From contig JAHRBS010000002.1 in assembly GCA_024305745.1 (NCBI GenBank), forward strand, positions 2,046,001 to 2,110,000: a DNA stretch of 64,000 nucleotides. The letters run 5' to 3'. A program made the translations under genes and the position numbers. Below the pieces are notes generated by a model. The model made no database searches. It was not told the DNA's origin and was given only the letters and a program-made list of their open reading frames with translations. Below, one piece after another: positions 34,413 through 62,979 of this stretch (the first letter of the stretch is position 1; each line of letters starts with the position of its first letter). Source of the stretch: Polyporus tsugae. Its lineage: Eukaryota; Basidiomycota; Agaricomycetes; Polyporales; Polyporaceae.

Positions 34413-34459
34413 TCTCAAGAAGACTTAGTCATGAAGGCACAACCCTTAGGAGGGGGTAT

Positions 34460-39277: not shown

Positions 39278-39337
39278 GTACGTTATCAGAAAATGGAACA
39301 TCTTGGCCCTAGCTCACCTAATGATGTTCCGCGCTGT

Positions 39338-39755
39338 TGTCATGGTTTTTCGCGCCACGTTTGGTACCACAGTCACAGCCACCAACCCTAACCCCAGGTT
39401 CACCCATTTCCGGACTCTAGCCTGGACACTGGTCATCATTATGTAATAGTACTTATCTCTTTGTTCTCCTTTTGGACTGGCTCACCTGCCATCAGTACCC
39501 AAGCCTGCCCTGAAGCAAGGTGGTCTGTGCACCTGTCATGTATAGTATATAAGGGCTGTGATGTGGGCTCAGAGACCTTAGATTCTGTCTCTTGTTCATT
39601 CCCCCATCATCTGTAGGCAGCTTAACAGCCCCTGCCATCCTCTGCCTTCTAGTCTAGGCCAATCTATCCTCTACTTCTGTTGCCACCCTCTGTGTGTCTC
39701 CATCAGTGAGCCCCCCCTTTTGTTTGTGTTGTGGCACAGTCGTTTGGCTGTGACA
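39338..39755 (+). repeat. 5' LTR of B1
   Basis: Contains tatagtatataagg (about 39541-39554), a good TATA box for element transcription. It differs from the 3' LTR at six sites by eye. Confidence 0.9.
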
Positions 39756-39789
39756 TTAGACAGAATCTCACACCTAGGCCCCTGGTTCA

Positions 39790-40359
39790 GTGCCCAAGTC
39801 ACTAGCCAGCCGTCTCTCTTCCCCCCAGGAGTTTTATACATGTTTATCATCCCCCATTCCCTCCAAGGAGCAAGACCTCCAGGAGGTTACCCGTCGCCAC
39901 TTCAAGAGGCACAGTCATCTCCCAGTCCAGGACCAGATATCCTGCGTACTTGTGGACTCTGCTGAGGATTGCCTTCGCTACTGCCTTCGGGAGCACGCAC
40001 CTCTGGTCCCTCGTCGCAAGGCTCTGCCTCAATCTGTCCCCTACGCCCGATCTTTGCCCAACACACCCCGCATCCAGGCACCCACACCCACGCTACCAAC
40101 CCCTGTCCTACCACTACCTATTCCCCTTGCGTGCCGCATCTCTGCTGCACCACTCCCAGCTTTCACCTGCACCGACGTCAACGACAACCTCGCTATCATC
40201 GAGACCAAGGCCCACGCCGTCCTCAAGCGCCTCCAAGCCGTCTTCGACCGCAAGGTGCTACTCGACAACCTTCCGCATGGCCATCATCTAGCCATCCAAT
40301 GTATTGGCGACCAACTCGAGTGGATCAGTGACAACATCAACCACAGCAGACCCAACTGA
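39790..40359 (+). CDS. B1 ORF0, unknown protein upstream of gag
   Basis: 189 codons, starting MPKSLASRLSSPQEFYTCLS. The first half is basic with a His/Arg/Asp-rich segment (EVTRRHFKRHSHLPVQDQIS; AEDCLRYCLREHAPLVPRRK). A Pro-rich linker follows, then a helical C-terminus (AHAVLKRLQAVFDRKVLLDN). The frame is intact in both B copies. Ty3/gypsy elements usually begin with gag, so this extra frame is unusual. I do not recognise a family. A possible relative is the short frame FGHAFHPHEVQDEHWDTV in A2 (48325-48600). Confidence 0.6.
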   Translation: MPKSLASRLSSPQEFYTCLSSPIPSKEQDLQEVTRRHFKRHSHLPVQDQISCVLVDSAEDCLRYCLREHAPLVPRRKALPQSVPYARSLPNTPRIQAPTPTLPTPVLPLPIPLACRISAAPLPAFTCTDVNDNLAIIETKAHAVLKRLQAVFDRKVLLDNLPHGHHLAIQCIGDQLEWISDNINHSRPN

Positions 40360-40536
40360 ACCCACAGTCAACAACAGAGCATCGACTGGTTCTGCAAGGA
40401 GTTTGGAAAGATAAAGTTTTCAGGTTTAGGACAATATTTCCCTAGAGTAGTGAACACAATTGTTGAGCTAGACAAGTTTGGGTACTTAGACTGGATTGTC
40501 TTGTAGTCTTCCCTTTGGTACAACAACCCCTGGAGT

Positions 40537-42132
40537 TTGGAATATATCATGTCTCGCTTTGAAGTTCTCCCAATGGATGCCTTTGGGCCCAATGAACCAC
40601 ACACCCCACCCGGTGGAGGAAACCCACCCAAAACAGAAACGACCCCCCAGCCAGCATCTCAACACCCCACACGCCCGCCGTCACCAACACCAACCCTTGA
40701 ACCTATACAGACTCCAACAAGCTGGACGTTTCAGGGTGAACCATACAACACGCTCGCAGAGGCAGTCCGAGCATCTGGGACATACTACAAAATAGACACC
40801 GAGTACATCGACTGGATCCTAGCTGTAATGAACGATATGGTCAGGCAAGACATCATAGGAGCTTACAACCAGTTAGGGAACAAAATGTATGAACACCGGA
40901 ACTCAACCGCCGTTGACATCCACAAACTCCAAGCCCAGCAGAAAAGGTGTGTCACCCACACAAAGTTCCATGAGGCCATAGATGACCTGGAGTCCTGCTG
41001 TCACGACTTGGAAACAGAGAATGATACGCTTAAGGCTGAGAGGGAAGTCCTCAAAATAGAGATGGACGTCCTCAACATCAACACTATGATGCTCGTTGAG
41101 GAAATCAAGGAGCTGAAAATGCAAGTTGCTTCCCTCATTGCTCACCCAACCACGGCACCTACCCGCACAGCCCCGGCAACCGTCCCATCACACAACACCC
41201 ACCGGCCTAGAATCGCGGACCCTCCCAAGTTTAAAGGCAAAACCCCGGATCTTACAGTGGAGCAATGGTTCCAGAAACTTGGCATTTGGTTCCGGTACCA
41301 GAACATCACGATGGACGATGACAAGATCACCACCGCTTTATTGTTCTTGGAAGGAGGAGCCCAGTCGTACATGGATGACTATGCCCAAAAAGCTGCAGAC
41401 AACACCTACCTTGGCACCTGGACCAGTTTCGTTGACCGGCTCAAGAGCGGATACCGGGAACTAGCACCAGAGAAGTCCGCTCAACAATCTTTGGAGGAAC
41501 TGTGTGCTAAGTCCCACTTGTCCCTCGCCTTGTTTGCGGAGAACTTCTGCCGTTTTGCCATCAAGTCTGGTTACTCTGACGTGGAGCTCATTCATCGTAT
41601 TGATGCTCAGTGCAAGGGTGATCTCCGTACCACTATGATCACCCACCGCTCCTTGTCACCGTTTACAGTCCCCACAAAGTGGGAGAACTTCCTGGATTGG
41701 GTACTTGGGATCAAGATGGACTACCGAGGGAACAAGTACCACAAGGCCACCTCCTCTTCAAGAGCTGCCAGAGATCCCGATGCCATGGACATTGATGCAA
41801 TGCGCAAGCCGGAGAAGTTCTCCAAGGAACAAGAGGACTGGCTAGCCAAGAAGATGTGCTTCCGGTGCGGCAAACACCCTTACAAGTCTGGCACCAAGTG
41901 TCGCAACCCGGCATACAAGGGGTACTACGAGCTTCCCGACTTCAAAGGCAAGGGTGTTGCACCAACCAAGATACGGGCCATCGAGAAAGAAGCCAAGACC
42001 GAAGACCAGGACCGAATGGAGTTTGTTGTCAACGCACTCAAGGAGTTTGAACTCAGGAGCAAGCAAGAGCATCAGGAAACCACTGCACGGATCTACGAGA
42101 CCAATGAGCAGGATTTTCTCCAGCGGATGTAA
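40537..42132 (+). CDS. B1 gag
   Basis: 531 codons, intact. A Pro-rich N-terminus precedes a coiled coil (about residues 130-205: LETENDTLKAEREVLKIEMD). Next is a retrotransposon capsid domain (WFQKLGIWFRYQNITMDDDK; AQSYMDDYAQKAADNTYLGT; ALFAENFCRFAIKSGYSDVE). A variant knuckle follows, spaced CX2CX2HX7C (CFRCGKHPYKSGTKC), and a basic/acidic tail. It forms virus-like particles and packages element RNA (family knowledge). Confidence 0.85.
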   Translation: MEYIMSRFEVLPMDAFGPNEPHTPPGGGNPPKTETTPQPASQHPTRPPSPTPTLEPIQTPTSWTFQGEPYNTLAEAVRASGTYYKIDTEYIDWILAVMNDMVRQDIIGAYNQLGNKMYEHRNSTAVDIHKLQAQQKRCVTHTKFHEAIDDLESCCHDLETENDTLKAEREVLKIEMDVLNINTMMLVEEIKELKMQVASLIAHPTTAPTRTAPATVPSHNTHRPRIADPPKFKGKTPDLTVEQWFQKLGIWFRYQNITMDDDKITTALLFLEGGAQSYMDDYAQKAADNTYLGTWTSFVDRLKSGYRELAPEKSAQQSLEELCAKSHLSLALFAENFCRFAIKSGYSDVELIHRIDAQCKGDLRTTMITHRSLSPFTVPTKWENFLDWVLGIKMDYRGNKYHKATSSSRAARDPDAMDIDAMRKPEKFSKEQEDWLAKKMCFRCGKHPYKSGTKCRNPAYKGYYELPDFKGKGVAPTKIRAIEKEAKTEDQDRMEFVVNALKEFELRSKQEHQETTARIYETNEQDFLQRM

Positions 42133-42206
42133 CGGGGACTGGCTGTAACATCTGATCTATATGTACTAGTAACGTAAACCACCTAGAGGAATCATTTGTA
42201 CCTAAA

Positions 42207-45200
42207 TTGAACTATGTATATCTCGCTTCATCACGCAGACAGCGACAGTCACTCAATTTAAAACTCACCCTCAGGCAAGGAATACGTGAAATCCAGTCAG
42301 AAGGGCTCCTAGATTGTGGAGCCTATTTGAGTTTTGCACACTATTGTTTTGTTCAGGAACATGGCCTGGAATTACGAAGCCTCTCATGAGAGATACAAGT
42401 GTTCAATGCCGATGCAACGGAGAACAAGAAGGGTCTGATCACGCACTATGTCCGGTGTCTTGTCACAATCGACAACCACACTAGTTGGCAGTCCTTTCTG
42501 GTCACAGATATAGGAAACCGGGATATAATTATTGGCATGACTTTCCTCCGGGAACACAACCCAGAAGTCGATTGGAAGGCGGGTCAAGTAAAGTTTACAC
42601 GCTGCCTGCACACCTGTCTACCCAGCCCAGTTTCGGTACAGGACGAAGAAATCCGGACGGTGGAGGAGCCCCGACTAGAGGAGTTTGCACAAGACACCTA
42701 CGGTCAGCTAGACTGCGAGCCCTGGGACAGTGCCGAACAGTTTGTACATTGGATACAGTTTTCTGATGACCCTGATGCCCGCGCTCTGCGAACACGGATT
42801 GAGGAGAAGAAGGAAGGAACACCAGTGCCAGGAAGCCAAGACAAGGACTACTGGTCTAATCATGTGCCCACCCACTATCATCAGTACGGTGACGTGTTTT
42901 CCAAGACAGCTTCAGAGCGGATGCCAACTCGCAAGCCCTATGACCACCCCATTGAGTTTGTGGAAGGAGCAACACTGCCAAAGCCAGCAAAGCTTTACTC
43001 ACTCAACCCCCAGGAACGGAACTCCCTCGATGGATGGATCGATGAACAGGAAGCTAAGGGATATATCCGAAGGTCAAAGAGCCCAGCTGCCGCTCCTGTA
43101 TTCTTTGTCAAGAAAAAGGATGGCAGCCTGTGACTGGTACAGGACTACCGCGCCCTCAATGCTGTCACCAAGAAGGACAAGTTCCCTATACCACGGATCC
43201 CGGACCTTATCGACCGTTTATCTCAGTCATCAATCTTCACCTCGCTGGACCTGAGGTGGGGGTACAATAATGTTTGTATACGGGAAGGAGATGAAGAGAA
43301 GGCAGCGTTTATCACTCACCATGGTCTGTACGAGCCAACGGTGATGACTTTTGGTCTTTGCAATGCCCCAAGCACCTTCCAGGCTATGATGAATGAGATC
43401 CTCAAGGAGGAGATTGCTACGGGACACGTGGTAGTTTACATCGACGATATCCTCATCTTCACAGATGACCTCACACTTCACCGGCAACTCACGGAACGAG
43501 TACTCCAGAAACTATGGGCAAATGATCTCTTCATTAAGCCTGAGAAGTGCAAGTTTGAACAACAGTCGGTTGAATTCCTTGGGCTGATCATCTCGAAGGA
43601 CTCCATCACAATGGACCCAGCCAAGGTTGAAGGTGTAAAGAACTGGCCGACACCTACCAAAGTCAAGCATGTACAGGCTTTCCTCGGCCTTGCCAACTTC
43701 TACCGATGTTTCATCAAGGACTTCTCAAAGATAGCTCGCCCGCTCACAGTTCTCACCTGCAAGGACGCACCTTGGCAGTGGGGAGAAGATCAAGAAAACA
43801 CCTTCCAGAGCCTCAAGACCGCCTTCACCACTGCTCCGATCCTCCAAATCCCCAATGACACTGCACCTTTCTACCTGGAAACAGACTCATCTGACTTCAC
43901 CACAGGGGCAGTACTGGAACAGTTGGGCGAAGATAAACTATGGCACCCAGTAGTGTTTTACTCCAAGTCCTTGAATGAGCATGAACGCAACTATGAGATC
44001 TATGACAAGGAGTTACTGGCCATCATACGTGCTTTGGAGGAATATCGCCACTACCTGGAGGGACATCCTGAGCCGGTTGAGATCTGGTCGGATCACCTTA
44101 ACCTCACCTACTTCCAGCAGGCCCAGAAGCTCACTCGTCGCCAAGCTCGCTGGAGTTTATTCCTTTCCCGTTTCAACTTCAACCTACGACACCGACCCGG
44201 CAAGACAATGCTTCGTGCCGACCCTCTGTCCAGGAGGCCAGATCATGAGGAGGGGGTAAGCAGCGACAATGATGGTCGAACACTGCTGAAGCCGGAGTTT
44301 TTTGCCATCAAAGCCATGCAAACCGTCCACGCCTCTGAAGTTGACGACAAGCAACTACTGGACAAGATCAAGAAGGCACTCAAAGATGACACAATGACCA
44401 AGGATTACAAGGCACTGCTCAATAGCGGCCCTCGGGAGTTTGGAAAATCACTGCAAGAATGGAACTTCGAGAACAGTTTCCTGCTCTATCGGGGAAAGGT
44501 CTATGTCCCAAAGGACCAGGAACTACAACTGGAGCTACTCAAGCTCCACCATGACACCACACTCGCTGGGCACCCTGGCCGATGGAAGACCCAGGAACTT
44601 ATCAGCTGCAACTACTGGTGGCCTGGAATGTCAGTCGATGTCAAGAAGTATGTCAAGGGGTGCAATACATGCCAACGTAACAAAGCCTCACGCAACCCTC
44701 CCTTTGGACTACTGCAGCCAAATGAAGTCCCAGCTGGGCCATGGGAGATCTGGAGCATCGACCTCATCACTCAACTTCCTGAGTCCTGTGACAGACACGG
44801 CAATGTTTACACGGCCATTGCAGTGGTGGTAGACTGGTTGACCAAGCGAGCCCACTTCTTTGCATGTGATGACCACTTCTCAGCCTCAGATGCGGCAGAG
44901 CTTGTCTACAAACACATACTCAAACATCATGGCCTACCCCAACAGATCATTTCAGATCGAGGAACACAGTTTGCCAGTGCACTCTTCAAGGAGTTTTGTG
45001 GGAAGCTGGGCATCCGAGCCTCTATGTCAACAGCCTATCACCCCCAAACCGATGGTCAGATGGAACGAGTCAACCAGTCATTGGAACAGTACCTACGGAT
45101 CTTCACCGAACACCACCCAGATAATTGGGCCTCCCTTCTATCCACTGCGGAGTTTTCCTACAACAATGCCGCACACGAGTCTACCGGCTTATCACCCTTC

Positions 45201-45899
45201 TTTGTGGAATACGGATACCACCCCAAGATGGCCCCAGATGTACAGGGAGAACTAGGTTTCCCGACCCTCGAAGACATCTTCCAGTACCGAACGGAAGCCC
45301 GGGAACAGGCCCAAGCATCCCTAACCCTCGCTGCAGAACGGATGAAGTGGTACTACGACAAACACAAGAGTGAAGTGCCATTGAAGGTTGGGGACAAAGT
45401 CCTTCTCAAAGGAAGGGACCTCAGGATCAAACAGTCATCAGCAAAGTTATCCGCAAAGAACTATGGGCCCTACCAAATCATCGACCAAGTTGGGCCGGTC
45501 GATTTCCGTCTACAACTCTCAGCCACAAACAAGGTCCACCCTGTCTTCCATGCTTCCAAACTCATCCCCTACCACGAGGACAAGATTGGCAACCGTAACC
45601 CGTCGAAACCACCAGCCATAGAGGTGGAAGGACATGACGAGTTTGAGGTCGAAAAGATCCTCGACTCCAAGACCTACTACGGATATGTCCGATACCTTGT
45701 GAAATAGGTTGGATACAATATCAGCGAAGCCACTTGGGAACCAGTACAGAATGTCAAGCACTGCAAAGAACTACTCGATGAATTCCACACCTCGCACCCT
45801 GGCGCTGTCCAACCAATATCCCTCACCAATCCACGGCCGGTACAAGCTCAGTTTAATCGTCAAGTTTGGTACGATCGCTTCGCTGGAGCTCAGCCTTGA
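42207..45899 (+). pseudogene. B1 pol, three in-frame stops
   Basis: Protease region LLDCGAYLSFAHYC, with DCGA in place of the usual DSGA, then IIIGMTFLREHNPEVDW. RT (VMTFGLCNAPSTFQAMMNEI; YIDDILIF), RNase H (LETDSSDFTTGAVLEQ), integrase HHCC and DDE core (HHDTTLAGHPGRWKTQEL; CNTCQRNKA; ISDRGTQFAS; HPQTDGQMERVNQSLEQ). The chromodomain reads EFEVEKILDSKTYYGYVRYL, then NISEATWEPVQN. Stops: TGA 42387-42389, TGA 43131-43133 just before the RT core, and TAG 45705-45707 at a conserved Trp of the chromodomain. The largest open piece is 43341-45707 (788 codons). All three stops are shared by B2. Confidence 0.9.
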
Positions 45900-45910
45900 G
45901 GAGGAAGTAG

Positions 45911-46328
45911 TGTCACGGTTTTTCGCACCACGTTTGGTACCACAGTCACAGCCACCAACCCTAACCCCAGGTTCACCCATTTCCGGACTCTAGCCTGGAC
46001 ACTGGTCATCATTATGTAATAGTACTTACCTCTTTGTTCTCCTTTTGGACTGGCTCACCTGCCATCAGTACCCAAGCCTGCCCTGAAGCCAGGTGGTCTG
46101 TGCACCTGTCATGTATAGTATATAAGGGCTGTGATGTGGGCTCAGAGACATTAGATTCTGTCTCTTGTTCATTCCCCCATCATCTGTAGGCAGCTTAACA
46201 GCCCCTGCCATCCTCTGCCTTCTAGTCTAGGCCAATCTATCCTCTACTTCTGTTGCCACCCTCTGTGTGTCTCCATCAGTGAGCCCCCCCTTTTGTTTGT
46301 GTTGTGGCACAGTCGTTCGGCTGTGACA
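45911..46328 (+). repeat. 3' LTR of B1
   Basis: Ends CTGTGACA at 46328 and is followed directly by element A2 sequence. Its diagnostic bases match the 3' LTR of B2, not its own 5' LTR. Confidence 0.9.
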
Positions 46329-49300
46329 GTTGTACCCCCAGCGACTATCAAGCTTTGTGAAGTCCTTGGCTTTCTGGAGTCGATCCATCAGATCCGATAC
46401 CAACAGTAGTGGGTAACAGTTCTTAATGGTGATCTCGTTGAGTCGCCAATAGTCCTGGACTGGATGTAGGCTACCATCCTTCTTCTTGACAAAGAAGAAC
46501 GGCGATGACATCGGCGACTTCGACTCTTGAATATAGCCCTTGGCCAAGTTCTCAGCGAGAAACTTGTCAAGCTCTCCTTGTTCGCTGGGCGACAGGGGGT
46601 ACACACGGGAATGGAACATCTTTGCATTGGGCACGAGCTCTATCGCATGGTCATAGGGTCCGTGTTCTGGCAAACGTTTGGACGCCTCTTTCGAGAACAC
46701 ATGCAGGTATTCGTGATAGTGCTCGGGTACAATTTCTTCGACGGGGCGGACTACCTTCTTCTGGTACTCTTGCTCAGTGAGTTGCTGCGAATATGTGTAT
46801 GTCGCTGAAGCAAACAGTTGTGGAGCACCATAAAGGTGTTGTCCATCCTCCCATGCATCGAGAAGAGACGTCTCAGTTCCATCCCACCGCGGCAGGAATC
46901 CTGGTGGCCAGGGCCTATCCTCCTCCTTCTCCTCAGTCATCACGGCCGCACACGCCCTTCCAACCTTCCTAACCTTCTTTGCCCGTCGAGGACCACGGCC
47001 CGCCGTAAGCCGTACCTCTGTATCACGCGCTTTGGTCTCGACAGGTTCAGAGGTTCTCTGGTTAGCCAGGCATGTCTCTGGACATCTCGACAGGCACAGC
47101 AAGCCATGTTCCCAGTCTACTTCAGGGTTGTGCTCGCATAGCCAGTCCAGGCCGATGATGACATCCTCTTCTCCTATATCCGTCACTACAAAGACCACCT
47201 TCTCCCTGTGGTCTCTGATTGCCATATCCAACACGGCAACCTCTGTGATCATACCATCACGGTTTTCCGAACCGTCGATGTTGTACAGAGGAATTGGCCT
47301 TGCCAACTTCCTCATCGTAACCCTATTCTGTTCTACGAATCGTCTATGTAGGAACTTAGTAGTAGCACCGCTATCTACCATAGCTACAATGTCCTTATGT
47401 CGCTGCTTGCCGATTAACCGTACCGGTATATGAAAGTGTTGACTATCGTGATTTACTTCATATACAAACAACGAACCCAGTACAGAAAATCGACTATTAC
47501 TACAAGAACCAGCACGTGCAGCATCCAATGCAGCTCTAATCAAAAACCCTCTTTCTTATCGACCACCGTAAGGGCGGCGATCTTCTCCTCCATTGCCTTG
47601 AGCTGGGCCTTGAGTGTCGTGAGCTCGTTGGTACTGGATGAGGAAGAAGAGGCAGCCCGTTGGTCCTCGACTTTGGGCTTTGGGCAGTGGAACACGGGAT
47701 GTCCTTTCTCGCCGCAGTTCCAGCAATCACCGTCAAACTTCTTCTTGCCTGAATCGGAGGCAGCTGCCTTTTCGCCCTTCTTCTTCCATCCAAATTGCTT
47801 TGGCCGTTCCTCCTCACGCACAGCAAGTTGCTGGTCCATCTGCAGCACGACTTTCTGGATCTTGGCGAGGTCTGAGATGTCGTGCGCTGTGGTCGCGAAG
47901 GCGTCGTTGATCTTGTAAGGGAGTGCTGTGCGGTACCTTTTGCACTTGTCTGCATCACCAGACCTGGTGCGAGCAGCGATGGCATTCAATTGACTGGTAT
48001 AGTCCTTGACAGTGCCAAGCCGATGCGAAGCCTTGTAGAGTTTGGCAAGTTCTACAACGGCAGCCTTCTTGTCGTTCGCAACACAGAAGTGCATCATAAA
48101 TGATCTTCAAAGGCCGCAAAGTCTGACCACGCAACATTGCTGCTAGCCACAGCAACAATGTATGGGCCTGTCCACTCAGCCGCACCACTGGTCCACTTGT
48201 TGAGGATTGTGATCCAGCGGATCTCGTGTGCGACACCTTGCGCCTTGAGGAGATCGTAGTAGATGTGGGCATTGGCTACAAAGCAGAGCCAGGAGGGGTT
48301 TCTGGAAGCGACAATGGCAGCTTGTCATTGGGGAGGGCATTCGGGGTCTCGAGGTTCTGGGGCAGGGGGATTGAGGAGTCTTGTGCGGATCTGCGAGTCC
48401 TGGCTGCCTTCGATGATGAGCCTAGGAGAGATAGTGTCGATTACTTCTGGAGTAGCTCTGAAGGTGCGTTGACGATTGGGACACGGTTGGTCTTCGCAGA
48501 CTGCCCAGCACTGTCTCACTGTATCCCAATGCTCATCCTGAACCTCGTGCGGGTGAAAGGCGTGCCCAAAGGTTTGACAAGCCAGAGTGGAGGGTCTCAT
48601 TTCCTATACCAGGAATGCAAACGGCAGGTGCACAACCCAACACTATCTGCTCAGCCTCCTCGGCCTATTGCTGTGTCTTAACATCAAGGGACACAAGCCC
48701 AGGGGTGTCTTGCCTTCGCTTTGTTTCACTGCCTTTCTCTAGCCTCCCACGCCGTGAGGCGGACCACTTCTGTCAGTGCCAGGGTCTCGGGTTAGGAGCT
48801 TTCCGTGCACTGTACCACTGAAAGTGGCAAGCCTCGAGTTGAATCAAGACCACATCCGATGGTGTGACTAGAGTGTGCACTACGCTAGGCCAACACAGAG
48901 GGTCAAGAGTGTGTACCGTACAAGGGGAAAAGGGAAAGGGTGTGGGTACGCCGGTGCTCGTGAAGTAGTTTCGACCTAATGTTACGACTGGCCGTCGAGT
49001 AAGGACCAGGGAGACTTACGAGACGAGCAAGGGTGTCAATGAGCACTTGTGCAGCGAGAGCAGAGCAAGGCTCAACAGTCAGGGCTGGAGACAAGATGTA
49101 TTGAGTAAGTAGGTGTCTATGAGCAAAATACAGCGAGGCTTACCTGGAGACAAGAGGTCGAAACTGAGGTCTCCAGGCAGCAAAGTGCAGGTCCTTATAT
49201 ATGTAGAGAGGACAATGAGAACCCGGGGACAATAGGTAACTATGGACACGGGTGAACAATGGAAACGGAACAATAGTGACGATGGACAATCAGGAGCTAT

Positions 49301-49425
49301 TGTGCTAAGGAACAAAGGACGAGATACAATGCAATGGAGAACAATAAGTACGACGTGAGAAGTAGATTGTCCAGAAAAGGAAACTAGGGCACTGGTGGCA
49401 GGCGCCAAATGGAGCATTCATGACA
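46329..49425 (-). mobile_element. Element A2, 5' half (LTR, gag, protease, RT start)
   Basis: On the minus strand from 49425: LTR 48980-49425 (446 bp), leader, gag with knuckle CWNCGEKGHPVFHC (47540-48097 open part), protease VDSGATTKFLHRRF and the RT beginning, breaking off at GGGTACAAC. The RT continues from the same codon at 62341-62345, beyond B2. The protease frame is open here where A1 has a stop. Gag has a one-base frameshift near 48100. Confidence 0.9.
48980..49425 (-). repeat. 5' LTR of A2
   Basis: The reverse complement starts TGTCATGAATGCTCC and ends CGTAACA. It is closer to the 5' LTR of A1 than to the mutated 3' LTR of A1. Confidence 0.85.
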
Positions 49426-49429
49426 GGTG

Positions 49430-51220: not shown

Positions 51221-51861
51221 CGGTAAAGTGTTGGTTCAGAATGATGCACCAGTAATCTGACATCCTCCCTGGAGGTTGTTGATTATGCAGCGAGTCCAAG
51301 GGGGCTCCTCACTATGCAGGTGGTCAAAAGCGGAGAGATGGTACAAAGTACTCCCAGAGACTGCAGAATACGGTCTGCTTCTCACGGGAGGTGTGCTGTC
51401 TGTGACTTAGGGAGGGTATCTACCCATCCCGCTAGCTGAGAGGGTGAGAATGTGCTCGCAATGCGAGAGGGTGGGAGATAGGGGGCCCCTGTCAAGCGGC
51501 ACGAGAGGGGAAGGCAAATCACTGCTGGGCCATGTCATTGAGAGAGGCAAGTCAGATGGTGAATGGTGTACCATACTAATATCTGAGTAATACCGAGTCT
51601 GATCCAGTATTCATTCTGTCCTTGGTCTCCAGGGAGAATATGTTGGCGTCCAATAGGAGTGAGGCTGCAGAGGTACATTGAGATGGTTATGAGATGAAAA
51701 AAACCAATGTAAGTGGATCATTGCATGATTGAATCAGATCAATGATGATACGGCACTGCTATTGGTGCTGATAGATGCTGGTGTTCAATAGCACACATGT
51801 TGGCACTCAATTCAGACAATCTGATTCGTCTCTACATCCTTGGTCTACTATGGCGATATGA
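51221..51861. other. 641-bp spacer
   Basis: Lies between the transposase stop and the uncharacterised gene. I see no coding segment or RNA gene. Confidence 0.45.
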
Positions 51862-54800
51862 CTACATTTGCTTCATCTGCTTGACACGAAGAAACATGTC
51901 CCCATCAATCAAGTCATGCACTAGGTAATCTCTCTCTTTATCCCAGTCGGGGATGAGCAATGCGCTGTGTATCACAGAGTTCAGGGAAATGAACCTTGCG
52001 CATGTGCACACACAATAGAATGAAAGATCACAATCTTTCTTCCATACAGCATTGCTAAGGTGGGCACCATCCAGCAGAGTCTTGTATGGTTTGATCAATG
52101 TGGTGGAATAGGTGATGTCCCCAACTGCATAGGCGAAGGCGAAGAGGAGTCAGCCAAATAAGTGCTTGCCATCACTGCCTGCTTGATACACCACACAGTT
52201 GCGGTGTTCCTGATTATAGAAGTTGGGGCTGCAACAGAGCAGGTTGGCGGACATCCGCCAGTCAATCTTGGACTCGTAGTTGACATATATGAGACAATAT
52301 GCTGTGACCTTAATAAGAGAGCCTGAGTAAATACTATATCATGAACTTTTTCACTGCATGACTTACCTGTTGGTCCACAGTGATCTTGATTGGCCTGCCG
52401 TCCGGGAGGAGAATATCGTAGTCACAGAAAAATTGAGTGAGATGGGCGCTGAGGCGCGAGTGGAAATTCTTGAATGCATCATTGATGAAGCCAGCTCAGT
52501 GGTTGTCAGTGGCCTGCCCCACCCTCTGCTGCTTGATGATCTGTGAAATTAAGCATGGTGGCTGTTTGGAACCTAGTCGGATATGCTGCACATCCAGTGT
52601 TTTGCCCACACCATTCCCCTCACCATCAGCAGTCTCATGGTGCTCCTCCATCTCCTGGACCACTGCAATCAAGATATCGGCATCCTGTTCATCAAGTGCC
52701 CGCCTAGCGTCATTGTAGTCAATATGTTGACAGATATGGATAGAAACATAGGCAGTGTGGTCAATGGCAAGAATCTGAGCTCAAATAGTTCAGGCATCGC
52801 TACTTAATATAGGATGATATAAATATTAATACCTGATCAGCCACATTTCTGAAGTTGGTGCGGAGGCAATATGTATCCTTCAGTGGTCCATGCAGCTTCT
52901 CATTGGGGCTTGGTGTTGTAATCACGGGTGACACCCTTTTTTTGAATGTCGTTAAAGGTGTGGATGTGGGTGTGACACTTTGGAAAGTTCCAATTTTTGG
53001 CATCAGGATCACTAGATGTTCTTTCCTGATATATATTCCCCCATAATCTGTTGTTTGTACTCTCCATCCCCCATCCTCTCATTAGTATGCAGCTCCAATC
53101 TCAGATAAATATCAACCTCTAAGTAGTTGCACATTATACGCATGAGTAAATATCCAAGTGAGCAACTAGTCTCAGTCACCACATTGTGGGATGAAAATAG
53201 TACATCCTGTATAGTGAATTAAATTTAAGTACTGGGCATACAATCATATAGTACTGGAGAATGTACCTTAGATAAATCCTCATGCTTTGAACCATCAGTA
53301 AATGTGACAGTCAGTGCCTCATCGAAATAGTTGTGTCCACGCCATTGTGGCATTTGACCAAACCTAGCAATAATACAAATTAGTTTACACAATCAGTCTA
53401 CTTCAATTTTTATTACACATACTGTTCATTTACTATTACCACAGCTGCTGATAAGATGGCCTCAATATATTGTTTGAAGAGAGGCCAAAGATGGTGTCCA
53501 AAGAGACCAGAATGAAAGGCATGGAGCCTATCGAATGAGAGTGCCTCATACAGATCTGAGTGATCAAGTTCTAGAAATGCACTCTGGCATTTTGTGTCAT
53601 TAGTCTCAAATATTCACCAATCATTGCAAGTCATCTTGCTCACCTTGATAGATCGCAAGCTCCAAGTCTTCAAGACTTTCTCTGAGTCTTTTATTCTCCT
53701 CTGCACCTGAGCTTCTGCAATGACCTCTCTTGCCTTTTGACCAGTACATTGCCCATACTCCTCCCATATCTTCATCAAGCGTGCCTTTGGCACAAGGCAG
53801 ATAGGCAGGAGAAAGAACCAGTTGCACCACGGATAAGTGACATGAAACATCTATTGCCAAGTAATCATCAAGTCATTACAAAGACACGGACGTGTGGCAT
53901 ATGCAAGGAAGGCATACTGTTCTTCATAATCTGCCAATAGTATGACAACAAAAACAAAAAAGTGGCGAGCAACCCCATCACCACACATCCACCGCACTCC
54001 AACTCGGTTGAATGCACGGATACACAGACAGAACAAAAGAGAACTCAGAAAGACTCATGCCAAACAGCGCACTTGTAGTTGACAAATGCCCGGCTCTGAC
54101 CCTCTGATCCTGCCCTCTCAGCCACCTGTTCACATTTGCATATTGATATCTAAACAGCTACATAGAACATATAACTTACAATCGGAAGCCAGCCAACAAC
54201 CCTGCCACCCCCAGGGCCCTCACCATTCCGGATGTAGGTGGGTAGATTGGCAACCTGAGTGCAGTCTATAAACACGATGATCCAATGCAAAGTTGCAAGG
54301 ACTAACCTGAACCTCCCAAAACTGATCTGCTGTGTAAGGCTCATCATAGAAGTGCTGAAACTTCTCGCCATCGAACTTCGACAATTGTTGGGCATCAAAG
54401 TGCATCTTATCAATGAGCTGAGGGTTCTGGAGAATATCCTTCAGGTACTCCCACAAGTCACAGCACCGGAAGTCATGCTTGACAACCTCCTTCTTGTACT
54501 CAACAGAGATGACATGGTACGTGAACTGATACATAGGTTAAACAACAGCATAACTATAAAAATAGGTAGTACAAACAGCGGTGACCTTGGGACTAGCATC
54601 TGCCCATGCTTGCTGTATGTTGTTGTAGGTTGTGAATGTAAAATTATCTGAACAGTGCACAAGCTTGAGCAAGGCGTTGACCTGCTTCTTGCTGAGGGCG
54701 GCATCGAGGACAAGCTCAGCGAACTCGAAGTCAGTGCAGGAAGCAAAGGGGCACCAAGGCTTATCATCACGGGGTGGCTGATACGTAGATGACCGTGTTC

Positions 54801-55269
54801 GAGTGAAGTCTTCAAAGTGCAAGACCACTGTCAGCTGCCCACTGTTGGGATGGTACTCCATCCTGATGTCATGGACATTGTACTGCGCAGGAGCTGGAGC
54901 AGCATCAGAACCAGGCTCAATGACATTGGGCTCACCATCATCAGCCATGGTAACATTGGACTCAATGTCAGAACCACTAGCATGGGGGAACACAGCCACG
55001 ACAGCACCGCCAGCAACAAACTCAGCAGCAGGAAGGGCGGGTCCCTCAGCAAGGATGACATCTGCAATCGAAACATCAATGTCGACCTGCATGAGCGAAT
55101 GATGGGATCCAGTAGATGCGCCTAAAGTGTTTGATGGGGATCAGAGTGGATACATTATTGAGATACAATCAATGACCGTACTCACCCACACTAGTTGTCC
55201 CCGACCCGATCATCATGTTCTGATCCTCAAACAGTGCGTCGTCACCATTGACAAGGGGCAGCGGGGGAC
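51862..55269 (-). pseudogene. Plavaka-like transposase, central and C-terminal exons, decayed
   Basis: Minus strand. The first exon (55186-55269) starts in phase 1: PPLPLVNGDDALFEDQNMMI. The next (54577-55121) gives MEYHPNSGQLTVVLHFEDF and FEFAELVLDAALSKKQVNAL. Further pieces read FTYHVISVEYKKEVVKHDFR, FDGEKFQHFYDEPYTADQFW, NLPTYIRNGEGPGGGRVVGW, ILLADYEEQYAF, SFDRLHAFHSGLFGHHLWPL, KNWNFPKCHTHIHTFNDIQK and the C-terminal FISLNSVIHSALLIPDWDKE. This order is that of basidiomycete Plavaka (CACTA-related) transposases, recalled from family knowledge. Several stops and small deletions are present (for example in the FILYADKT region, which is missing), so it is inactive. Its 5' exon lies at 39038-39277 on the plus strand. 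Confidence 0.7.
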
Positions 55270-55761
55270 CTGACAATATAATTTGTCAGTCAAGGGAAGC
55301 AAAGAGAGAGACAGGACAATGAACCTTCATACAGTATTCATGGCACAGCTGTCACAGCCGAATGACTGTGCCACAAAACAAACAAAAGGGGGGGCTCACT
55401 GATGGAGACACACAGAGGGTGGCAACAGAAGTAGAGGATAGATTGGCCTAGACTAGAAGGCAGAGGATGGCAGGGGCTGTTAAGCTGCCTACAGATGATG
55501 GGGGAATGAACAAGAGACAGAATCTAAGGTCTCTGAGCCCACATCACAGCCCTTATATACTATACATGACAGGTGCACAGACCACCTGGCTTCAGGGCAG
55601 GCTTGGGTACTGATGGCAGGTGAGCCAGTCCAAAAGGAGAACAAAGAGGTAAGTACTATTACATAATGATGACCAGTGTCCAGGCTAGAGTCCGGAAATG
55701 GGTGAACCTGGGGTTAGGGTTGGTGGCTGTGACTGTGGTACCAAACGTGGTGCGAAAAACC

Positions 55762-58700
55762 GTGACACTACTTCCTCCTCAAGGCTGAGCTCCAGCGAAG
55801 CGATCGTACCAAACTTGACGATTAAACTGAGCTTGTACCGGCCGTGGATTGGTGAGGGATATTGGTTGGACAGCGCCAGGGTGCGAGGTGTGGAATTCAT
55901 CGAGTAGTTCTTTGCAGTGCTTGACATTCTGTACTGGTTCCCAAGTGGCTTCGCTGATATTGTATCCAACCTATTTCACAAGGTATCGGACATATCCGTA
56001 GTAGGTCTTGGAGTCGAGGATCTTTTCGACCTCAAACTCGTCATGTCCTTCCACCTCTATGGCTGGTGGTTTCGACGGGTTACGGTTGCCAATCTTGTCC
56101 TCGTGGTAGGGGATGAGTTTGGAAGCATGGAAGACAGGGTGGACCTTGTTTGTGGCTGAGAGTTGTAGACGGAAATCGACCGGCCCAACTTGGTCGATGA
56201 TTTGGTAGGGCCCATAGTTCTTTGCGGATAACTTTGCTGATGACTGTTTGATCCTGAGGTCCCTTCCTTTGAGAAGGACTTTGTCCCCAACCTTCAATGG
56301 CACTTCACTCTTGTGTTTGTCGTAGTACCACTTCATCCGTTCTGCAGCGAGGGTTAGGGATGCTTGGGCCTGTTCCCGGGCTTCCGTTCGGTACTGGAAG
56401 ATGTCTTCGAGGGTCGGGAAACCTAGTTCTCCCTGTACATCTGGGGCCATCTTGGGGTGGTATCCGTATTCCACAAAGAAGGGTGATAAGCCGGTAGACT
56501 CGTGTGCGGCATTGTTGTAGGAAAACTCCGCAGTGGATAGAAGGGAGGCCCAATTATCTGGGTGGTGTTCGGTGAAGATCCGTAGGTACTGTTCCAATGA
56601 CTGGTTGACTCGTTCCATCTGACCATCGGTTTGGGGGTGATAGGCTGTTGACATAGAGGCTCGGATGCCCAGCTTCCCACAAAACTCCTTGAAGAGTGCA
56701 CTGGCAAACTGTGTTCCTCGATCTGAAATGATCTGTTGGGGTAGGCCATGATGTTTGAGTATGTGTTTGTAGACAAGCTCTGCCGCATCTGAGGCTGAGA
56801 AGTGGTCATCACATGCAAAGAAGTGGGCTCGCTTGGTCAACCAGTCTACCACCACTGCAATGGCCGTGTAAACATTGCCGTGTCTGTCACAGGACTCAGG
56901 AAGTTGAGTGATGAGGTCGATGCTCCAGATCTCCCATGGCCCAGCTGGGACTTCATTTGGCTGCAGTAGTCCAAAGGGAGGGTTGCGTGAGGCTTTGTTA
57001 CGTTGGCATGTATTGCACCCCTTGACATACTTCTTGACATCGACTGACATTCCAGGCCACCAGTAGTTGCAGCTGATAAGTTCCTGGGTCTTCCATCGGC
57101 CAGGGTGCCCAGCGAGTGTGGTGTCATGGTGGAGCTTGAGTAGCTCCAGTTGTAGTTCCTGGTCCTTTGGGACATAGACCTTTCCCCGATAGAGCAGGAA
57201 ACTGTTCTCGAAGTTCCATTCTTGCAGTGATTTTCCAAACTCCCGAGGGCCGCTATTGAGCAGTGCCTTGTAATCCTTGGTCATTGTGTCATCTTCGAGT
57301 GCCTTCTTGATCTTGTCCAGTAGTTGCTTGTCGTCAACTTCAGAGGCGTGGACGGTTTGCATGGCTTTGATGGCAAAAAACTCCGGCTTCAGCAGTGTTC
57401 GACCATCATTGTCGCTGCTTACCCCCTCCTCATGATCTGGCCTCCTGGACAGAGGGTCGGCACGAAGCATTGTCTTGCCGGGTCGGTGTCGTAGGTTGAA
57501 GTTGAAACGGGAAAGGAATAAACTCCAGCGAGCTTGGCGACGAGTGAGCTTCTGGGCCTGCTGGAAGTAGGTGAGGTTAAGGTGATCCGACCAGATCTCA
57601 ACCGGCTCAGGATGTCCCTCCAGGTAGTGGCGATATTCCTCCAAAGCACGTATGATGGCCAGTAACTCCTTGTCATAGATCTCATAGTTGCGTTCATGCT
57701 CATTCAAGGACTTGGAGTAAAACACTACTGGGTGCCATAGTTTATCTTCGCCCAACTGTTCCAGTACTGCCCCTGTGGTGAAGTCAGATGAGTCTGTTTC
57801 CAGGTAGAAAGGTGCAGTGTCATTGGGGATTTGGAGGATCGGAGCAGTGGTGAAGGCGGTCTTGAGGCTCTGGAAGGTGTTTTCTTGATCTTCTCCCCAC
57901 TGCCAAGGTGCGTCCTTGCAGGTGAGAACTGTGAGCGGGCGAGCTATCTTTGAGAAGTCCTTGATGAAACATCGGTAGAAGTTGGCAAGGCCGAGGAAAG
58001 CCTGTACATGCTTGACTTTGGTAGGTGTCGGCCAGTTCTTTACACCTTCAACCTTGGCTGGGTCCATTGTGATGGAGTCCTTCGAGATGATCAGCCCAAG
58101 GAATTCAACCGACTGTTGTTCAAACTTGCACTTCTCAGGCTTAATGAAGAGATCATTTGCCCATAGTTTCTGGAGTACTCGTTCCGTGAGTTGCCGGTGA
58201 AGTGTGAGGTCATCTGTGAAGATGAGGATATCGTCGATGTAAACTACCACGTGTCCCGTAGCAATCTCCTCCTTGAGGATCTCATTCATCATAGCCTGGA
58301 AGGTGCTTGGGGCATTGCAAAGACCAAAAGTCATCACCGTTGGCTCGTACAGACCATGGTGAGTGATAAACGCTGCCTTCTCTTCATCTCCTTCCCGTAT
58401 ACAAACATTATTGTACCCCCACCTCAGGTCCAGCGAGGTGAAGATTGATGACTGAGATAAACGGTCGATAAGGTCCGGGATCCGTGGTATAGGGAACTTG
58501 TCCTTCTTGGTGACAGCATTGAGGGCGCGGTAGTCCTGTACCAGTCACAGGCTGCCATCCTTTTTCTTGACAAAGAATACAGGAGCGGCAGCTGGGCTCT
58601 TTGACCTTCGGATATATCCCTTAGCTTCCTGTTCATCGATCCATCCATCGAGGGAGTTCCGTTCCTAGGGGTTGAGTGGGTAAAGCTTTGCTGGCTTTGG

Positions 58701-59471
58701 CAGTGTTGCTCCTTCCACAAACTCAATGGGGTGGTCATAGGGCTTGCGAGTTGGCATCCGCTCTGAAGCTGTCTTGGAAAACACGTCACCGTACTGATGA
58801 TAGTGGGTGGGCACATGATTAGACCAGTAGTCCTTGTCTTGGCTTCCTGGCACTGGTGTTCCTTCCTTCTTCTCCTCAATCCGTGTTCGCAGAGCGCGGG
58901 CATCAGGGTCATCAGAAAACTGTATCCAATGTACAAACTGTTCGGCACTGTCCCAGGGCTCGCAGTCTAGCTGACCGTAGGTGTCTTGTGCAAACTCCTC
59001 TAGTCGGGGCTCCTCCACCGTCCGGATTTCTTCGTCCTGTACCGAAACTGGGCTGGGTAGACAGGTGTGCAGGCAGCGTGTAAACTTTACTTGACCCGCC
59101 TTCCAATCGACTTCTGGGTTGTGTTCCCGGAGGAAAGTCATGCCAATAATTATATCCCGGTTTCCTATATCTGTGACCAGAAAGGACTGCCAACTAGTGT
59201 GGTTGTCGATTGTGACAAGACACCGGACATAGTGCGTGATCAGACCCTTCTTGTTCTCCGTTGCATCGGCATTGAACACTTGTATCTCTCATGAGAGGCT
59301 TCGTAATTCCAGGCCATGTTCCTGAACAAAACAATAGTGTGCAAAACTCAAATAGGCTCCACAATCTAGGAGCCCTTCTGACTGGATTTCACGTATTCCT
59401 TGCCTGAGGGTGAGTTTTAAATTGAGTGACTGTCGCTGTCTGCGTGATGAAGCGAGATATACATAGTTCAA
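55762..59471 (-). pseudogene. B2 pol, four in-frame stops
   Basis: Same domains and the same three stops as B1, plus a TAG at about 58665-58667 (after the residues LYPLNP). The 788-codon piece 55971-58337 carries RT YIDDILIF, RNase H, integrase and the start of the chromodomain. Confidence 0.88.
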
Positions 59472-59545
59472 TTTAGGTACAAATGATTCCTCTAGGTGGT
59501 TTACGTTACTAGTACATATAGATCAGATGTTACAGCCAGTCCCCG

Positions 59546-61141
59546 TTACATCCGCTGGAGAAAATCCTGCTCATTGGTCTCGTAGATCCGTGCAGTGGTT
59601 TCCTGATGCTCTTGCTTGCTCCTGAGTTCAAACTCCTTGAGTGCGTTGACAACAAACTCCATTCGGTCCTGGTCTTCGGTCTTGGCTTCTTTCTCGATGG
59701 CCCGTATCTTGGTTGGTGCAACACCCTTGCCTTTGAAGTCGGGAAGCTCGTAGTACCCCTTGTATGCCGGGTTGCGACACTTGGTGCCAGACTTGTAAGG
59801 GTGTTTGCCGCACCGGAAGCACATCTTCTTGGCTAGCCAGTCCTCTTGTTCCTTGGAGAACTTCTCCGGCTTGCGCATTGCATCAATGTCCATGGCATCG
59901 GGATCTCTGGCAGCTCTTGAAGAGGAGGTGGCCTTGTGGTACTTGTTCCCTCGGTAGTCCATCTTGATCCCAAGTACCCAATCCAGGAAGTTCTCCCACT
60001 TTGTGGGGACTGTAAACGGTGACAAGGAGCGGTGGGTGATCATAGTGGTACGGAGATCACCCTTGCACTGAGCATCAATACGATGAATGAGCTCCACGTC
60101 AGAGTAACCAGACTTGATGGCAAAACGGCAGAAGTTCTCCGCAAACAAGGCGAGGGACAAGTGGGACTTAGCACACAGTTCCTCCAAAGATTGTTGAGCG
60201 GACTTCTCTGGTGCTAGTTCCCGGTATCCGCTCTTGAGCCGGTCAACGAAACTGGTCCAGGTGCCAAGGTAGGTGTTGTCTGCAGCTTTTTGGGCATAGT
60301 CATCCATGTACGACTGGGCTCCTCCTTCCAAGAACAATAAAGCGGTGGTGATCTTGTCATCGTCCATCGTGATGTTCTGGTACCGGAACCAAATGCCAAG
60401 TTTCTGGAACCATTGCTCCACTGTAAGATCCGGGGTTTTGCCTTTAAACTTGGGAGGGTCCGCGATTCTAGGCCGGTGGGTGTTGTGTGATGGGACGGTT
60501 GCCGGGGCTGTGCGGGTAGGTGCCGTGGTTGGGTGAGCAATGAGGGAAGCAACTTGCATTTTCAGCTCCTTGATTTCCTCAACGAGCATCATAGTGTTGA
60601 TGTTGAGGACGTCCATCTCTATTTTGAGGACTTCCCTCTCAGCCTTAAGCGTATCATTCTCTGTTTCCAAGTCGTGACAGCAGGACTCCAGGTCATCTAT
60701 GGCCTCATGGAACTTTGTGTGGGTGACACACCTTTTCTGCTGGGCTTGGAGTTTGTGGATGTCAACGGCGGTTGAGTTCCGGTGTTCATACATTTTGTTC
60801 CCTAACTGGTTGTAAGCTCCTATGATGTCTTGCCTGACCATATCGTTCATTACAGCTAGGATCCAGTCGATGTACTCGGTGTCTATTTTGTAGTATGTCC
60901 CAGATGCTCGGACTGCCTCTGCGAGCGTGTTGTATGGTTCACCCTGAAACGTCCAGCTTGTTGGAGTCTGTATAGGTTCAAGGGTTGGTGTTGGTGACGG
61001 CAGGCGTGTGGGGTGTTGAGATGCTGGCTGGGGGGTCGTTTCTGTTTTGGGTGGGTTTCCTCCACCGGGTGGGGTGTGTGGTTCATTGGGCCCAAAGGCA
61101 TCCATTGGGAGAACTTCAAAGCGAGACATGATATATTCCAA
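59546..61141 (-). CDS. B2 gag
   Basis: 531 codons, intact. It differs from B1 gag by one residue that I can see (HPTRLPSP instead of HPTRPPSP). Capsid region and variant knuckle as in B1. Confidence 0.85.
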   Translation of the reverse strand: MEYIMSRFEVLPMDAFGPNEPHTPPGGGNPPKTETTPQPASQHPTRLPSPTPTLEPIQTPTSWTFQGEPYNTLAEAVRASGTYYKIDTEYIDWILAVMNDMVRQDIIGAYNQLGNKMYEHRNSTAVDIHKLQAQQKRCVTHTKFHEAIDDLESCCHDLETENDTLKAEREVLKIEMDVLNINTMMLVEEIKELKMQVASLIAHPTTAPTRTAPATVPSHNTHRPRIADPPKFKGKTPDLTVEQWFQKLGIWFRYQNITMDDDKITTALLFLEGGAQSYMDDYAQKAADNTYLGTWTSFVDRLKSGYRELAPEKSAQQSLEELCAKSHLSLALFAENFCRFAIKSGYSDVELIHRIDAQCKGDLRTTMITHRSLSPFTVPTKWENFLDWVLGIKMDYRGNKYHKATSSSRAARDPDAMDIDAMRKPEKFSKEQEDWLAKKMCFRCGKHPYKSGTKCRNPAYKGYYELPDFKGKGVAPTKIRAIEKEAKTEDQDRMEFVVNALKEFELRSKQEHQETTARIYETNEQDFLQRM

Positions 61142-61318
61142 ACTCCAGGGGTTGTTGTACCAAAGGGAAGACTACAAGACAATCCAGTCTAAGTACCCAA
61201 ACTTGTCTAGCTCAACAATTGTGTTCACTACTCTAGGGAAATGTTGTCCTAAACCTGAAAACTTTATCTTTCCAAACTCCTTGCAGAACCAGTCGATGCT
61301 CTGTTGTTGACTGTGGGT

Positions 61319-61888
61319 TCAGTTGGGTCTGCTGTGGTTGATGTTGTCGCTGATCCACTCGAGTTGGTCGCCAATACATTGGATGGCTAGATGATGGCCA
61401 TGCGGAAGGTTGTCGAGTAGCACCTTGCGGTCGAAGACGGCTTGGAGGCGCTTGAGGACGGCGTGGGCCTTGGTCTCGATGATAGCGAGGTTGTCGTTGA
61501 CGTCGGTGCAGGTGTAAGCTGGGAGTGGTGCAGCAGAGATGCGGCACGCAAGGGGAATAGGTAGTGGTAGGACAGGGGTTGGTAGCGTGGGTGTGGGTGC
61601 CTGGATGCGGGGTGTGTTGGGCAAAGATCGGGCGTAGGGGACAGATTGAGGCAGAGCCTTGCGACGAGGGACCAGAGGTGCGTGCTCCCGAAGGCAGTAG
61701 CGAAGGCAATCCTCAGCAGAGTCCACAAGTACGCAGGATATCTGGTCCTGGACTGGGAGATGACTGTGCCTCTTGAAGTGGCGACGGGTAACCTCCTGGA
61801 GGTCTTGCTCCTTGGAGGGAATGGGGGATGATAAACATGTATAAAACTCCTGGGGGGAAGAGAGACGGCTGGCTAGTGACTTGGGCAC
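61319..61888 (-). CDS. B2 ORF0
   Basis: 189 codons, intact, one Phe-to-Tyr change from B1 (APLPAYTCTD). Maintenance of this frame in both copies, while pol has stops, is noted in the findings. Confidence 0.6.
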   Translation of the reverse strand: MPKSLASRLSSPQEFYTCLSSPIPSKEQDLQEVTRRHFKRHSHLPVQDQISCVLVDSAEDCLRYCLREHAPLVPRRKALPQSVPYARSLPNTPRIQAPTPTLPTPVLPLPIPLACRISAAPLPAYTCTDVNDNLAIIETKAHAVLKRLQAVFDRKVLLDNLPHGHHLAIQCIGDQLEWISDNINHSRPN

Positions 61889-62340
61889 TGAACCAGGGGC
61901 CTAGGTGTGAGATTCTGTCTAATGTCACAGCCAAACGACTGTGCCACAACACAAACAAAAGGGGGGGCTCACTGATGGAGACACACAGAGGGTGGCAACA
62001 GAAGTAGAGGATAGATTGGCCTAGACTAGAAGGCAGAGGATGGCAGGGGCTGTTAAGCTGCCTACAGATGATGGGGGAATGAACAAGAGACAGAATCTAA
62101 GGTCTCTGAGCCCACATCACAGCCCTTATATACTATACATGACAGGTGCACAGACCACCTTGCTTCAGGGCAGGCTTGGGTACTGATGGCAGGTGAGCCA
62201 GTCCAAAAGGAGAACAAAGAGATAAGTACTATTACATAATGATGACCAGTGTCCAGGCTAGAGTCCGGAAATGGGTGAACCTGGGGTTAGGGTTGGTGGC
62301 TGTGACTGTGGTACCAAACGTGGCGCGAAAAACCGTGACA

Positions 62341-62979
62341 ACAACAATGTGCAAGTTAAGGCCGGCGATGAGTGGAAGGCTGCCTTCGTGACCAACCGAG
62401 GGCTGTTTGAGCTGAACGTTATGTTCTTTAGGCTAGCCAATTCACCCAGCACATTCTCTGTGCTCATGAATGACATCTTCAAGGACCTCATCATACCCGG
62501 CAAAGTCACCATATACCTCGATGACATCCCCATATTCACCGACAATCTCGAGGAACACCGCACATTGGTGCGCGAGGTCCTGAAATGTCTTAAGGAGAAC
62601 GACCTGTTCTGCAAGCCAGAGAAGTGCGAGTTCGAACAGCCTAAGGTGGAATACCTCATTGTACTCGTCTCGGAGAACTGCGTAGAGATGGACCCGGTGA
62701 AGGTGAAGGGTATCGCAGATTGGCCTGTCCCTCAGAATGCCACAGACGTATGGAAGTTCCGCAGTTTTGCAAACTTCTATTGGCGGTTCATAAAGGACTT
62801 TAGTGCCATCTGCCAACCCTTGGATCGCCTCACGGGCAATGCGCCATGGCAATGGGGAGACGAAGAGTAGTCTGCCTTTGACGAGCTCAAGCATTGCTTC
62901 ACCAAAAGCCCTGTCCTAACAATCTATGATCCAGACCGCAACACCCACATCGAAGTCGACGCATCTGGCTTCACTACGG
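62341..62979 (+). mobile_element. Element A2, 3' part (RT to RNase H)
   Basis: Resumes the RT exactly at the duplicated ACAAC: NNVQVKAGDEWKAAFVTNRG, palm motif YLDDIPIF, then the RNase H start IEVDASGFTT. An in-frame TAG lies at 62868-62870, where A1 has CAG. The sequence stops at CTACGG where the Copia LTR begins; in A1 the next bases are GCGCGG. Confidence 0.9.

Follow-up and report, generated by a model that had tools for sequence, protein, structure and literature searches.

The closest described counterparts of the rearrangement considered here are the inversions 2j, 2q7 and 2z3 of Drosophila buzzatii. There (PMC2775673), inverted copies of Galileo lie at the breakpoints, the target-site duplications of the copies have been exchanged, and the inversions are attributed to ectopic recombination, the case having been settled by chimeric copies. 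A locus of this kind is found in a stretch of 64,000 bp from Polyporus tsugae, hereafter the window (C15:2046001-2110000, C15 being one of the 18 contigs of a 43.24-Mb genome assembly). Here B1 and B2, two copies of a Ty3-type long terminal repeat (LTR) retrotransposon that we call family B, lie in opposite orientation on either side of a segment that appears to have been inverted. In the probable history of the locus, two B insertions, X and Y, were followed by ectopic recombination between them together with gene conversion over nearly their full length; it is the possibility of an assembly error that keeps us from putting this more strongly.

The locus is like Galileo in having two opposite copies at the breakpoints and exchanged target-site duplications (PMC2775673), and unlike it in that the elements are LTR retrotransposons with 5-bp duplications, the copies are homogenized, and no un-inverted chromosome enters the comparison. 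Ty1 of budding yeast is alike in that recombination between dispersed copies of an LTR retrotransposon rearranges chromosomes (PMC9879454, PMC3102749), but those cases were laboratory-selected or induced, whereas the small inversion considered here was recognized in a genome assembly by its duplications. Gene conversion, by which sequence is homogenized between or within elements after insertion, is described for human LTRs (PMC4921805) and for plants (PMC7251063); in contrast to those cases, nearly a whole 7-kb element is involved here, and the inverted neighbors each keep a difference between their 5' and 3' LTRs. A study of intercentromeric recombination in Cryptococcus (PMC5568439) likewise concerns ectopic recombination in a basidiomycete genome, but between chromosomes and on a large scale, unlike this local inversion. 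Inversions with exchanged duplications in Drosophila and rearrangement by LTR retrotransposons in yeast are already established, and the present case belongs to that kind; what is unusual is that the copies are homogenized and not visibly chimeric, and that two neighboring families appear to have undergone a similar exchange.

Family B has the features of a Ty3/gypsy element: its LTRs begin with TG and end with CA, its copies are flanked by 5-bp duplications, and the pol open reading frame (ORF; 43341-45704 in B1) contains reverse transcriptase, RNase H and integrase domains in the Ty3 order. B1 and B2 are homologous, oppositely oriented and placed one at each breakpoint (Table 1). A first-pass annotation of this DNA had reported GCTGT and GTTGT beside B1 and ACAGC and ACAAC beside B2, and direct reading finds all four flanks where it placed them. 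It had further held that neither copy has a matching pair and that reversal of 46329-55349 restores both, which is indeed the case: the flanks of one and the same element do not match for either B1 or B2, whereas the cross pairs match at 5/5 and 5/5 positions. The duplications mark two integration sites, that of X (GCTGT) and that of Y (ACAAC). Among the other B copies, identical 5-mers occur in 2 of 380 cross-element pairs (5' flank of one copy against 3' flank of a different one; the flank table behind this estimate was transcribed by hand), and the probability of two exchanged matches by accident is of the order of 3e-5.

The Y site lies inside a second retrotransposon, A2 of family A. As had also been claimed, reversal rejoins this element: its junction ends, 46329-46728 (minus strand) and 62341-62740 (plus strand), are contiguous with an overlap of exactly 5 bp in 3/3 A copies aligned, namely A1 of the window, L039 and L040, which were chosen from many more listed A copies. 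Doubt whether the two halves are one element comes from a further copy, A3, with which A2-left is 94.2% and A2-right 99.6% identical overall. In ungapped 100-bp intervals, the identity of A2 and A3 is 97-100% in 11 of the 13 nearest the junction on the left (the other two, immediately beside the junction and at 400-500 bp, have 92% and 94%) and in 7/7 on the right; beyond 1.3 kb from the junction, A2-left falls to 90% and below. We have kept the reading that A2-left and A2-right are probably one element. The target duplication of A2 itself, considered as an extra test, was dropped because the 3' end of A2 is lost behind family-C insertions. A3 (C15:2120533-2126630, L067) lies past the family-C palindrome described below and is without B at the Y site. 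Where family C enters A2, the corresponding position of A3 is occupied by a solo family-C LTR (duplication TACGG), and the 99.6% identity of A2 and A3 over 721 bp points to duplication or conversion between the two.

At the X site, a search of the genome gave no second match for the right flank (54400-55349), and for the left flank further matches were confined to 38411-38546. Because DNA copies of this site are lacking elsewhere, coding and intron structure was used to judge continuity. The putative exons 1 and 2 of a Plavaka-like gene, which the first-pass annotation had missed, are at present about 16 kb apart on opposite strands. In an uninterrupted paralogue (L064; C3, about 320 kb), the body of which matches the 54541-55140 piece at 38%, the corresponding boundaries are CATCAAG/GTACGT ... 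TATAAG/GTCCCCC (the slash marks the splice site), with a 156-bp intron. The intron at X would interrupt the same codon at the same position and in the same phase (HQ-G^GT-PP), and its remnants imply a length of 60 + 80 - 5 = 135 bp. The same donor pattern is present in 1/5 paralogue stretches (L064 only). By tblastn, the matches of the short exon pieces in the five paralogue stretches were no more than weak, and a protein search with the 54541-55140 piece returned two relatives (181 and 183 amino acids), both of which start after exon 2 and leave exon 1 uncovered. The assignment of the 54223-54537 piece to PF18759 is marginal (26.6 bits against a curated cut-off of 26.3; the whole-genome scan, in which 49 pieces match Plavaka, as fits a fungal genome, gave it 23.8 bits, which is under the cut-off) and is supported by the five paralogue matches to the 54541-55140 piece. 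If the splice sites are as proposed, X would have sat in intron 1 of an already degenerate Plavaka-like gene, and since the gene that it broke was already degenerate, no effect on a live gene is evident. Within the inverted segment, 49432-53400 had no match elsewhere among 37 of 252 candidates scored, and three ORFs from it gave no Pfam match over the cut-off.

Taken together, three independent continuities, those of the duplications, of A2 and of the Plavaka-like gene, return when 46329-55349 is reversed, and this supports the view that the present order derives from the reversed one. The first-pass annotation had put the inversion at 9 kb. Its 9,021 bp (46329-55349) stand as a minimum, but the exchange lay somewhere within B, and the inverted DNA may extend to 23,003 bp (39338-62340; 23.0 kb), the maximum applying if the exchange was at the outer ends of B. 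(The Galileo inversions of flies are reportedly much larger than the segment between B1 and B2.) Mapping of the crossover inside B was abandoned, because the copies are homogenized and no clear linkage is seen between polymorphic sites 992 and 1098.

The same annotation had attributed the inversion to recombination between inverted repeats. The restored continuities bear this out; however, plain crossing-over is insufficient to explain the relationships among the LTRs and the homogenization of the copies. At the time of its integration, an insertion has two identical LTRs. A plain crossover predicts that the B1 5' LTR should resemble the B2 3' LTR, and the B2 5' LTR the B1 3' LTR, but the opposite is seen: these pairs differ at 7/418 and 5/418 positions, respectively, whereas the two 5' LTRs differ at 1 position and the two 3' LTRs at 3. 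Consequently, near-full-length homogenization has to be added. In particular, T119 and A180 occur together in both 5' LTRs of the window and in 0/65 other B LTRs, and G391 is present in the B1 5', B2 5' and B1 3' LTRs and in none of the 64 others with data. The interiors of B1 and B2 differ at 7/6,155 sites (0.114%) and the full elements at 11/6,991. Within a comparison set of 22 long B copies, the 20 others are 4.16% or more from B1, and the next-closest independent pair is 3.99% apart; pairs among five block-duplicated copies, which lie on C1, C5, C7, C9 and C11 and share a 5' flank, were set aside. When the LTRs are paired according to the duplications, interior and LTR divergence disagree (Fisher p = 5.5e-4 for the pair with 5/418 differences and 9.3e-6 for that with 7/418). 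B1 and B2 were thus made alike well after insertion. Had one source given rise to two very recent independent insertions that then simply crossed over, with no conversion, the low interior divergence would be explained, but the presence of T119/A180 in both 5' LTRs and in neither 3' LTR is then unexpected, as is the disagreement between interior and LTR divergence (Fisher p down to 9e-6), and such a history is hardly credible. If Y converted almost all of X and X-type tips remained beside the X duplication, the LTR data would be accounted for with no recurrent change at non-CpG sites.

The sequence of events was probably as follows. X would have integrated in intron 1 of the decayed Plavaka-like gene (duplication GCTGT), and Y inside A2 (duplication ACAAC), in the opposite orientation and about 9 kb from X. 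Homologous recombination between these inverted 7-kb repeats would then have inverted the intervening DNA and so swapped the outer duplications. Gene conversion from Y, in that event or one close to it, would have overwritten almost the whole of X, leaving X-type tips in the B2 3' LTR near position 391 and perhaps at position 6 of the B1 5' LTR. Both the direction of conversion, from Y to X, and its coupling with the crossover are presumptive.

A neighboring pair of elements, followed in a wider frame (window 62980-64000 and on to C15:2120532), may have had a similar past. Just beyond B2, two family-C LTR elements lie in opposite orientation as an 11.5-kb near-palindrome of 99.59% identity. 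One of them has apparently inserted in the 5' LTR of the other, at LTR positions 78-82 and with the duplication ACCCT, and the other end of the inserted element is now flanked by CTCAT; these flanks appear to reflect a second exchange, similar to that of the B pair. The outer flanks of the older element (TACGG and CTCAT) remain unmatched even after such an exchange is allowed for. Between the 5' LTRs there are 0 differences over the shared 348 + 82 bp, between the 3' LTRs 2, and between 5' and 3' LTRs 8, which is the same asymmetry as in B. An origin of the C pair by intramolecular self-insertion was dropped on reasoning, without computation.

This asymmetry bears on a quite different route for B, a one-step replicative (Mu/Shapiro-type) or hybrid-element transposition in which an integrated B at X, or two sister copies, attacked the A2 site through the LTR ends. 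A single event of this sort would yield the inverted second copy, the inversion, the exchanged duplications, the near-identical interiors and the shared 5'/3' LTR asymmetry, and in the Galileo report a hybrid-insertion model for a DNA transposon has identical rather than chimeric copies as its mark (PMC2775673). The identity of B1 and B2, terminal differences included, comes near to this, the exceptions being T391 in the B2 3' LTR and three further LTR differences. T391 is the family base, where the other three LTRs have G, and would need a reversal or a small LTR conversion. In addition, the C pair has the same asymmetry although it arose, as it seems, by ordinary insertion into an LTR, so that conversion between inverted neighbors seems to operate here. 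To our knowledge no LTR integrase acts on an integrated copy, and a narrow literature search found none. We regard the one-step route as very improbable, and the same holds for its premise that an integrated LTR retrotransposon was transposed replicatively, as DNA and by its own integrase, to a nearby site on the same chromosome.

How often B copies recombine can be judged from the flanks of the others. In 19 other full-length copies both LTR ends can be read. Their duplications match in 9 (exactly in 8, for one of which the reading was extended by hand beyond an altered LTR end, and at 4 of 5 positions in one) and are mismatched in 10. (Of the 20 long loci, six were left aside: in five no 3' LTR was found where the internal part ends, and in the sixth the 3' LTR is truncated. 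Another five copies were scored on the evidence of their ends, and copies for which a single end was seen are outside this count.) The number of LTR differences is 6-26 in the mismatched copies (median 14) and 1-27 in the matched ones (median 6; Mann-Whitney p = 0.027), as expected if the ends of mismatched copies derive from different insertions. Of eight LTRs without internal sequence on either side, six have an exact match, one matches at 4 of 5 positions, and one is mismatched. These counts suggest that recombination among B copies has been frequent in this genome.

The survey also helps in weighing an artifact. Were X and Y in truth un-inverted, an assembler might have crossed between the near-identical inverted 7-kb repeats and perhaps blended their interiors, a misjoin of the sort that the first-pass annotation had itself raised. 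With the five block-duplicated copies set aside, no pair among the 22 is harder to separate than B1 and B2 (0.114%, with one difference-free stretch of 2,322 bp), and identical interiors with differing tips are what flank-anchored consensus mixing is expected to give. Nevertheless, 11 differences between B1 and B2 survive, and with LTR pairs 1.2-1.7% apart, blending should have left more than 7 interior differences unless it was total. An assembly of 43.2 Mb in 18 contigs, with telomere arrays (among the matches listed, TTAGGG arrays terminate C2 and C3 on both sides and C1 on one), suggests that long reads were used. Mismatched duplications are, moreover, frequent among B copies with which long reads should have little difficulty (in 7 of the 10, the measured interiors are 5.5-8.3% from B1). 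Because mismatch is frequent among other, clearly distinct B copies, real recombination in the organism is the likelier source of the present order, and a misjoin is unlikely.

A number of observations weigh against two insertions followed by recombination and conversion. By flank searches of the genome, the assembly has one copy of the B1/B2 locus, and there is no un-inverted chromosome to compare. Chimerism of B1 and B2, the strongest diagnostic in Galileo, is masked by homogenization, and the LTR relationships are unlike those of a simple chimera; if X was about 4% from Y beforehand, conversion has left no residual patch. T119 alone occurs in two distant LTRs and A180 alone in two, so that recurrence is possible, and of the eight variable LTR sites four (6, 17, 405 and 408) are CpG transitions and hence weak evidence, which does not apply to 119, 180, 240 and 391. 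In the 100 bp next to the Y site, A2 resembles A3 at only 92% on the left, as against 97% on the right. The splice sites of the Plavaka-like gene were placed by eye from translations, without transcripts, and its pieces were compared separately. In 4/10 mismatched B copies, C14:616, C1:2664 and C9:1393 (both LTRs) and C6:464 (one LTR), the mate is still nearest in a set of 49 LTRs, and not every mismatch therefore represents an exchange between copies. Finally, a matched copy, C17:1879, has 27 LTR differences.

Some further features of families A and B were seen. GATGA is common to the 5' flank of the B copy at C14:616 kb and the 3' flank of that at C11:213 kb, which could be the scar of a translocation. 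A hand estimate puts the chance expectation for such one-sided matches at 0.1-0.5, and in the C14 copy each LTR still has the other as its nearest relative. The five block-duplicated B copies (L011-L015) lie 23-68 kb from contig ends on C11, C9, C7 and C5 and, not near an end, at 4.98 Mb on C1. Their interiors are 0.02-0.46% apart, and they have the same 5' flank and no 3' LTR found in the stretches examined, which points to block duplications. Four of these look subtelomeric, and near the C1 copy there is one internal TTAGGG match. Among the matches listed, dense A clusters with some B are present at C17:1.81-1.89 Mb, C9:1.38-1.50 Mb and C1:1.02-1.06 Mb, and are possibly centromeric. Centromeres of Cryptococcus are rich in transposons.

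Table 1. Features of the B1/B2 locus and its surroundings (window coordinates)
Feature	Position	Strand	Basis
B1, full-length Ty3-type LTR retrotransposon, 6,991 bp	39338..46328	+	self-comparison; domains in pol ORF
B1 5' LTR, 418 bp; T119, A180, G391	39338..39755	+	LTR alignment
B1 3' LTR; C119, C180, G391	45911..46328	+	LTR alignment
B2, full-length copy, 6,991 bp, 11 differences from B1	55350..62340	-	self-comparison
B2 5' LTR; T119, A180, G391; one difference from B1 5' LTR	61923..62340	-	LTR alignment
B2 3' LTR; C119, C180, T391	55350..55767	-	LTR alignment
GCTGT, first copy, target duplication of insertion X	39333..39337	+	flank reading
GCTGT, second copy of X duplication, now adjoining B2 (ACAGC on plus strand)	55345..55349	-	flank reading
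GTTGT, one copy of Y duplication (inside A2), now adjoining B1	46329..46333	+	flank reading
ACAAC, other copy of Y duplication	62341..62345	+	flank reading
Minimum inverted segment, 9,021 bp	46329..55349	.	duplications, A2, Plavaka-like gene
A2 left half with 5' LTR (about 48980-49425)	46329..49426	-	self-comparison, A-copy alignment
A2 right half, up to inserted family-C LTR	62341..62979	+	self-comparison, A-copy alignment
A1, same family as A2, without B at Y site, reference copy	28424..34905	+	self-comparison, A-copy alignment
Putative exon 1 of Plavaka-like gene, CxxC zinc-finger-like, in-frame stop; 39064 not a mapped start	39064..39277	+	donor CACCAAG/GTACGT, intron from 39278
Putative exon 2, same Plavaka-like gene	55184..55269	-	acceptor TTGTCAG/GTCCCCC
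Further Plavaka-like coding piece	54541..55140	-	five paralogue matches
Further Plavaka-like coding piece	54223..54537	-	PF18759 E=4.5e-6
Further Plavaka-like coding piece	53416..53613	-	PF18759 E=0.0063, below its cut-off
Family-C near-palindrome (L066, L067)	63067-74530 (window coordinates continued past its end)	two opposite strands	identity of 99.59%

The near-identical copies and the LTR asymmetry that they share keep a one-step replicative origin formally open, and such an origin, if true, would mean a DNA-level transposition route for LTR elements. Recombination with conversion between two inserted B copies, the probable history, makes the locus a compact and internally checked case of an inversion by LTR retrotransposons, in which the same two points interrupt three unrelated features, all of which are restored together. 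It also indicates that element copies at a breakpoint can be homogenized, so that neither chimerism nor LTR dating is reliable there.

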